Source: Geobacteraceae bacterium (lineage in GTDB: Bacteria > Desulfobacterota > Desulfuromonadia > Geobacterales > Geobacteraceae). Taken from it: 55,287 nucleotides of DNA. Each line of letters opens with the position of its first letter. The first letter of the stretch is position 1. A model generated the notes under the pieces. It saw only the letters and a list, made by a program, of their open reading frames with translations, made no database searches and was not told the origin of the DNA. Positions 18,535 through 36,371 of the stretch are shown piece by piece. A program made the translations under genes and the position numbers. The stretch is taken from contig JAMXLF010000102.1 of the NCBI GenBank assembly GCA_024281055.1, positions 1-55,287 of the forward strand, in the 5' to 3' direction.

Positions 18535-18549
18535 GATTTCTCGAATCGA

Positions 18550-18702
18550 ATAGCAGCCGAAACCTGTCCGATGGCGTGCAGGTGCGGGGGACCCGATCAG
18601 GTGGGGCGAATTCTTGGCCGCAGGAAGTTGAGCGGTCCGAGACAGGATACTTTCAAATCCGAGCCCGTCAGCTAACCTCGTAGGCATGTGGAAGGGCTCG
18701 GA
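18550..18702 (+). ncRNA. c-di-AMP riboswitch (ydaO/yuaA class)
   Basis: The kup leader contains the strongly conserved ydaO signatures in the right order: GGGGGACCC near 18585, GGGGCGAA near 18603, and CCGTCAGCTAACCTCGTAGG near 18665. Long-range pairing is visible (CCTGTC near 18563 with GACAGG near 18641; CCGAGCCC near 18659 with GGGCTCGG near 18694). The class binds cyclic di-AMP. In other bacteria it often sits before K+ transporters and turns them off when c-di-AMP, and hence K+, is high. Exact 5' and 3' limits are approximate. Confidence 0.9.
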
Positions 18703-35877: not shown

Positions 35878-36180
35878 TTACGGGTATCCCGCAGCTTTCC
35901 AGGCCTCCACGCCACCCTCCAGGGCCGCGACGTTCGAATACCCCTTCGCTGCGAATTCCGCTGCCCGACCGGCAGACGTATGCTCGTTCGGTCATTGGCA
36001 GTAGAAGATGATCTCCTGCTCCCGGGTGATGCCGGTAAGCCGGGTGCTCAGCTCGCCGAGGGTCAAGGCCCCCTCCAGACGCAGCCGGCCGCACAATTCC
36101 TCGTTTTCGTACGCACAGACGAAGAGCGCCTCCCCGGTCTGTGCCTTCCGCCGTGCCTCATCAGGTTTCACCCGTCTCAC
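35878..36180 (-). CDS. Rhodanese-like selenoprotein (in-frame UGA read as selenocysteine)
   Basis: The frame reads a single rhodanese domain of about 100 residues interrupted by one TGA (35992-35994, codon 63). Before it is EIIFYCQ and after it PNEHTSAGRAAEFAAKGYSNV, GGVEAWKAAGYP, the normal continuation of a rhodanese. The UGA sits two residues after the conserved Cys, in the active-site loop. A hairpin with the fdhF-like GGUC loop starts 13 bases after it. Start is an in-frame GTG behind AAGGAGG; no in-frame ATG is suitable. Selenocysteine rhodaneses are known in Geobacter. A simple nonsense mutation is the alternative. Confidence 0.8.
35959..35978 (-). promoter_or_regulatory. Bacterial SECIS-like hairpin
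   Basis: The mRNA reads CG-U-CUGCC-GGUCG-GGCAG-CG: a 5-bp stem closed by a GGUCG loop, then a bulged U and two more pairs. The loop GGUC and the bulged U are the features SelB recognises in E. coli fdhF. The apical loop lies about 21 bases after the UGA, within the usual range. Confidence 0.75.
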
Positions 36181-36371
36181 CCCGCCATCGCCTCCTCCTT
36201 TCGCTTCCGGTTTCGATCCTTCAGGGCGGAAGCCGCCCCTAGGGAGAAGTGTAGCAGAGAAACCGGCGAGAAAAAGTGGAAGCCTGCGAAAAAACGGCGC
36301 TCGGTCAAACGTTCCCTTCCTTGATCCCGATGGAAAGCCCAAGCTCTCGGGGGGAAGGCGGTCACCACTCC

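Follow-up and report, generated by a model that had tools for sequence, protein, structure and literature searches.

Rhodaneses carrying selenocysteine (Sec), the CxU form among them, are listed in the portions of PMC9312934 and PMC13188914 available to us, so the CxU kind of selenorhodanese is already known. The available part of PMC13188914 presents CxU as rhodanese-like selenoprotein form 3, represented by the model NF041203 (rhodanese_LYCAU), with credit to Zhang and Gladyshev (2005), and also covers TsoB (NF045694), a rhodanese/DsbD fusion-like selenoprotein with a UxxxxU motif. Our literature search for a Desulfuromonadales selenocysteine rhodanese with a UGA found no paper, and the CxU passage recovered by a search for rhodaneses with a 'CxU motif' concerns another protein, as far as the available text of that source goes. 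GlpE of Escherichia coli, a single-domain thiosulfate sulfurtransferase, has to our knowledge no Sec. As for the signals that direct Sec insertion, the SECIS of E. coli fdhF is a hairpin soon after the UGA with a GGUC-type loop and a bulged U.

Against this background we describe a gene from a 55,287-nucleotide contig of a Geobacteraceae bacterium (the window, by which we mean the whole stretch that was analysed; its genome is designated G000). Judging from sequence comparisons, Sec is very probably inserted at the UGA of a rhodanese-fold protein, which would make this a selenoprotein gene. Like the proteins of NF041203, the predicted window protein is a rhodanese domain in which a single Sec follows the catalytic Cys at a distance of two residues, and it displays the CxU motif of that model (Cys61-x-Sec63). 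It nevertheless scores 60 bits against a curated cut-off of 115, and the 28 members of our alignment A2 (from which, as from A3, the relative L059 was left out) all match NF041203 with a best E-value of 5.1e-18, implying scores well below the cut-off. In a comparison made without the example record TKB26178.1, it differs further in belonging to a separate clade and in having Cys22 in place of D-x-R. Given the sub-threshold score, the separate clade and the C[AGS]Y motif described below, we file the gene as a CxU selenorhodanese outside NF041203. TsoB shares the rhodanese domain and Sec (PMC13188914), but its model spans 572 positions with another Sec spacing, and the window protein reaches only 17.9 bits against its cut-off of 805. 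The resemblance to GlpE lies in fold and size (Z 14.9), whereas the loop in the window protein has C-x-U and the D-x-R is absent. Finally, the window hairpin shares with the fdhF SECIS its place soon after the UGA, a GGUC-type loop and a U able to bulge; unlike in fdhF, the upper stem in the window clade has 5 bp, and the bulge and lower stem are unconserved among relatives.

The reading frame and its fold

The proposed gene occupies 35878-36180 on the minus strand, running from a GTG (36180-36178) through 100 codons to a TAA (35880-35878), as delineated by the frame, the Pfam match, the relatives and the structure model. The only TGA inside the frame is codon 63 (35992-35994), which we read as Sec63 because homologues keep a TGA at the same codon. 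Two codons before it, the TGC at 35998-36000 encodes Cys61, which alignment identifies as the cysteine of the rhodanese catalytic loop (the 80 rows of the window clade have Cys there in 73 cases and Sec in 7). The initial annotation had described a single TGA inside a rhodanese domain, two residues past the conserved Cys and with the frame open on both sides; this was borne out in full, on the minus strand and at codon 63. Read through the TGA, the product is MRRVKPDEARRKAQTG...EQEIIFYCQ-U-PNEHTSAGRAAEF...GGVEAWKAAGYP. It exceeds the cut-off of the Pfam Rhodanese domain (PF00581; 34.5 versus 22.2 bits) over residues 42-97 only. An AlphaFold2 model, computed with the TGA read as Cys and an alignment of 28 sequences, has a mean pLDDT of 92.5 and a pTM of 0.86. 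Among the PDB matches listed by VIA-align, its best is E. coli GlpE (1gmx; Z 14.9, rmsd 2.0, 97 residues), followed by many further rhodaneses. These three lines of evidence indicate that the halves on either side of the TGA form one domain. The product is probably an 11-kDa single-domain rhodanese-fold protein of the cytoplasm, a location assumed since a signal sequence is not evident by eye.

The start of the gene calls for some comment. All four relatives aligned in this region begin with an in-frame ATG (M-A-...), and the counterpart in the window, at 36186-36188, lies one base out of frame when read by eye; hence we assume a GTG start or else an assembly error. Unless the assembly is wrong, the GTG at 36180, 10 bases past AGGAGGAGG, is the likely start, and AGGAGGAGG itself (36191-36199, minus strand) is a likely ribosome-binding site, there being a similar purine run before the ATG of the four aligned relatives.

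The TGA, the hairpin and the selenium machinery

A search of 147 related genomes recovered 35 matches below an E-value of 1e-20, the window's own gene included, and every one has a TGA; the next match stands at 9.5e-10. The weaker matches listed number 21 (9.5e-10 to 9.2e-7; TGA in 5, none in 16) and are other rhodaneses or remote kin, which were kept out of the alignment. A named genome collection yielded 61 loci, 58 of them readable across the site (L147-L149, whose matches span only about 44 N-terminal residues, were not counted), with TGA in 57 and TGC in one, L140 from a Planctomycetota record. The records belong to Geomonas, Citrifermentans, Geotalea, Desulfofustis and Acetomicrobium, along with MAGs labelled Nitrospirae, Acidobacteriota and Planctomycetota. 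Among 395 genomes sampled from the phylum, including the window's own and a few that were already in the earlier sets, 31 had a match; each of the 33 matches contains at least one TGA, and in all 30 that were translated it falls at the codon-63 site. As the samples overlap and hold near-copies, these counts are not independent. The expectation in the initial annotation that homologues should bear Cys or Sec at this position thus agrees with what they have, namely Sec throughout and Cys once (L140). Across 19 sequences, the median dN/dS was 0.23 for codons past the hairpin and 0.27 for those preceding the TGA (106 and 131 of 171 pairs, respectively), rough values from which pairs with dS zero, undefined or at least 2.5 were dropped; the former places the 3' part under protein constraint. 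One relative, L059 in genome G120, has an additional in-frame TAA besides the TGA and an altered loop (CGUGU), and is perhaps a decaying copy.

Following the TGA is the hairpin CUGCC-GGUCG-GGCAG (35961-35975, minus strand; loop 35970-35966), for which covariation and folding support an interpretation as a bacterial SECIS. With the T of the TGA as column 1, columns 20-24 (CUGCC) pair with columns 30-34 (GGCAG). For a 25-mer containing it, the folding energy is -11.2 kcal/mol (z -2.47), and 1 of 200 shuffles does as well. In 53 distinct rows, 98.5% of the cells of the 5-bp stem are paired, as against only 18-53% when the partner columns are slid. Changes on both sides of a pair occur in 19 cells versus 4.9 +/- 1.6 after shuffling, and none of 500 shuffles reaches 19, although kinship alone can lift such counts above shuffles, as the tool itself warns; on two of the five covariation measures (double-change pairs and further pair types), 18 and 21 of the 500 shuffles were as high. 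The pair 21-33 is U-A in 36 rows, C-G in 16 and G-C in one; the pair 24-30 is C-G in 51, A-U in one and U-A in one; and 20-34, the lowest of the upper stem, is absent in 4 of the 53. Rows of the Geobacter type display a double change, TCT..GCA to TCC..GCG, that is synonymous on both sides. Of 58 distinct 40-mers from homologues (counting those of the window and of L059 with its extra TAA), 54 have the complete 5-bp stem, while 2000 redraws of synonymous codons with the proteins kept gave a mean of 8.0 full stems and a maximum of 21, so the stem is conserved beyond the needs of the protein.

The initial annotation called this a textbook SECIS, a stem with a GGUCG loop and a bulged U as in fdhF. 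The hairpin, the loop and the U are indeed there, and both loop and upper stem are conserved, with GU at loop positions 2-3 in 53 of the 58 40-mers. The U at 35976 is bulged in the window if 35978-35977 pair with 35960-35959, but neither the bulge nor the lower stem is conserved: at column 19, where the 'bulged' base stands, 42 of the 58 40-mers have U and 16 have G, and of the pairs beneath it, 17-36 cannot form in 34 of 53 rows and 18-35 in 26. 'Textbook' is thus a slight overstatement, also because the isolated RNA of 51 nucleotides from the UGA onwards prefers another fold (-16.5 kcal/mol and z -1.15, with 27 of 200 shuffles folding equally well). With 40-nucleotide stretches starting 3, 6, 9, 12 or 14 bases later, the hairpin has a probability of at least 0.98, and as the bases skipped would presumably be covered by a ribosome standing at the UGA, we do not see the other fold of the free RNA as a strong objection.

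The genome G000 (4.44 Mb in 103 contigs, 99.6% complete, 3.4% contamination) encodes the entire set of selA, selB, selC and selD on which the initial annotation had made its reading depend, all on contigs other than that of the window. SelA scores 632 bits; two SelBs, 74% identical to each other over 636 residues, exceed their cut-off at 379 bits each; and two tRNA-Sec genes, at 77.0 and 75.6 bits, lie above the gathering score. The selD gene (L026) has a TGA of its own (K-A-A-G-U-A-A) with a hairpin downstream. The two complete selB genes and the two tRNA-Sec genes are L009, L010, L017 and L018; on contig 38, one of these tRNA-Sec genes adjoins a selB. Two SelBs occur in 3 of 48 family genomes, G000 included, and the doubling of SelB and tRNA-Sec in G000 may stem from contamination of the assembly. 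Among family genomes with the gene, SelB was found in 26 of 28, the two exceptions being 84% complete. Conversely, of the 43 family genomes in which SelB was found, 17 lack a match below 1e-20, from which it follows that selenoprotein synthesis does not need the gene. The 14 genomes reached through the loci have SelB over the cut-off in 12 cases and tRNA-Sec in 11: a tRNA-Sec occurs with no SelB match for L103 (CxU), and SelB with no tRNA-Sec over the gathering score for L137 (UxU) and for L108 and L150 (CxU). The CxC locus L140 also comes with a tRNA-Sec and no SelB over the cut-off, which leaves a loss of Sec decoding there as no more than a possibility. The selenium machinery, the TGA kept in relatives and the covarying hairpin together point to a gene that encodes a selenoprotein and contains a SECIS of the bacterial type. 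In the proposed decoding, SelB with Sec-tRNA-Sec would bind the hairpin at 35975-35961 when the ribosome reaches the UGA at 35994-35992, and Sec63 would be inserted in place of termination.

Two other readings of the TGA have to be set against this one. By translation table 11 the frame simply ends at the TGA, and a true stop in a decayed rhodanese would also sit well with a start region one base off relative to the relatives and with the extra in-frame TAA of L059. Nonetheless, the recurrence of this TGA (57 of the 58 readable loci, in records whose labels name several phyla), the purifying selection downstream of it and the covariation of the hairpin led us to reject the pseudogene as highly improbable. 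We give still less credence to a UGA decoded by near-cognate suppression or as some other amino acid, independently of SECIS and SelB. Nothing except the open frame speaks for it; it was rejected in view of the covarying hairpin at a fixed distance from the UGA, the SelB and tRNA-Sec of the genome, and the Cys at the site in the sole relative lacking the TGA.

The clade, its paralogues and forms with two predicted selenocysteines

A tree of 91 rows places the window gene in a clade of 80 (72 CxU, 7 UxU and 1 CxC) that is separated from 11 others (CxU, UxU and SxC rhodaneses) with support of 100/100; the tree is midpoint-rooted and built on few columns, so that the position of the long CxC row is unsure, and it omits L141, L144 and L146 (partial or broken) as well as L162, L187 and L190 (own copy or partial). 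The clade is marked by C[AGS]Y at the place of D-x-R in all 80 rows and in none of the 11 others, 8 of which have [DN]-x-R. In the window protein the Cys of this motif is Cys22 (36115-36117, minus strand), standing where the usual rhodanese D-x-R has its Asp. Loop position 3 is Sec in 79 of the 80 rows. The stretch between the catalytic Cys and the G-Y turn is two residues longer, as counted by eye, than in the rhodaneses L001 and L004 of G000. The SxC paralogues, with Ser as their first loop residue, still retain the second loop chalcogen, which suggests that position 3 matters in its own right. On the basis of these conservation patterns, the predicted protein is one with three conserved chalcogen residues: the catalytic Cys61 and, in its loop, Sec63, together with Cys22 at the D-x-R place, which we infer to be a third redox residue.

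At some loci a second TGA replaces the codon of the catalytic Cys, giving UxU: 5 of the 58 readable loci (L130, L137, L138, L142 and L143) and 2 of the 30 in the phylum sample (L180 and L182), L138 and L182, with branch lengths of 0, apparently being one and the same protein. Of the UxU genomes tested, 5 of 5 have SelB over the cut-off and 4 of 5 tRNA-Sec. For L142 and L143 a sequencing error is unlikely, because they come from separate assemblies in which nearby bases differ and both TGAs are common. The eight UxU rows require 6 changes on the tree (5-6 in bootstrap replicates), of which at least 3 are forced by well-supported branches. In a limited literature search we found no published description of a UxU rhodanese. 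G000 itself has a second selenorhodanese, L006 (G000:C24:102101-102400, minus strand), with two TGAs (Y-U-S-U-P) and a hairpin in the same columns as that of the window gene with a stem sequence of its own; its nearest relatives in the 147 genomes, L061 and L062 (59% identity), have no TGA. In such UxU forms, one SECIS would decode two UGAs six bases apart.

G000 encodes further rhodaneses. About 4 kb from L006 is its paralogue L007 (G000:C24:97663-97968, minus strand; Y-S-T-C-P), in which Ser takes the catalytic position and a Cys follows two residues later. L003 (G000:C93:40450-40734, minus strand) has a TGA five codons past the catalytic Cys (C-A-S-P-T-U), a spacing equal to that of the Cys in L002 (C-N-G-Y-S-C). 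No close relative of L003 was found in the 147 genomes, the next best match (1.1e-15) being without a TGA and some weaker ones containing one.

Possible functions and their implications

The conserved residues allow a tentative scheme in which Cys61 would take up sulfane sulfur (or selenium) as a persulfide, Sec63 would attack this persulfide, releasing sulfide or passing the atom on, and the resulting Cys61-Sec63 selenenylsulfide would be reduced by a thioredoxin-like donor or by Cys22. If so, its role would be that of a selenol-assisted persulfide reductase or a chalcogen carrier, and not simply that of a thiosulfate sulfurtransferase. More broadly, we posit, as a possibility short of an even chance, that this is a nearly obligate-Sec clade with a three-chalcogen site, in which UxU arose several times and whose chemistry proceeds through diselenide or selenenylsulfide, not through thiosulfate sulfur transfer.

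Both alternatives to this scheme accept the insertion of Sec. The protein could be an ordinary thiosulfate:acceptor sulfurtransferase in which Sec merely speeds the reaction, as might be argued from GlpE being the best structural match among those listed and from the catalytic Cys kept in 73 of 80 rows; C-A-Y in place of D-x-R, the two extra residues between the catalytic Cys and the G-Y turn (by eye, relative to L001 and L004) and the replacement of the catalytic Cys itself by Sec in several lineages make this unlikely, though it retains appreciable weight. A selenium-substituted rhodanese was reportedly proposed as a selenium donor by Ogasawara et al. in 2001, and on that precedent the protein could be a selenium carrier giving perselenide to SelD, a role that would fit a nearly obligate-Sec family. 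We think this rather improbable, considering that the sel genes of G000 are on other contigs and that 17 of 43 SelB-positive family genomes are without a match below 1e-20.

The genomic context, studied by clustering frames of at least 90 codons around 58 sites (up to 3 kb on each side of 57 loci, 5 kb for the window), revealed no neighbour common to more than 8 of the 58. With 15 loci, the largest cluster is that of the selenorhodanese's own frame, truncated by the TGA. Second comes a cluster of 8 loci from Geomonas, Citrifermentans and one Geobacter MAG, and a few small ones (3-4 loci) unite more distant loci in which position and strand vary. In the window, the downstream gene codes for an AHSA1-domain protein and the divergent upstream gene for a PEBP-family protein; neither these neighbours nor the clustering yielded a functional link or partner gene. 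Elsewhere in the window, at 18545-18701 on the plus strand, is a c-di-AMP riboswitch (76.8 bits; gathering score 38).

In terms of what is new, the CxU kind was known, and the sequences point to a branch of it that nearly always has Sec and sometimes two. This adds a clade to the CxU selenorhodaneses, the window member of which is missed by the current curated model at its cut-off, and the gene shows how an apparent stop codon can hide a real enzyme. The recurrent passage from CxU to UxU provides a natural series, SxC, CxC, CxU and UxU, on one fold, which lets one ask what benefit a second selenium brings and how one SECIS serves two close UGAs.
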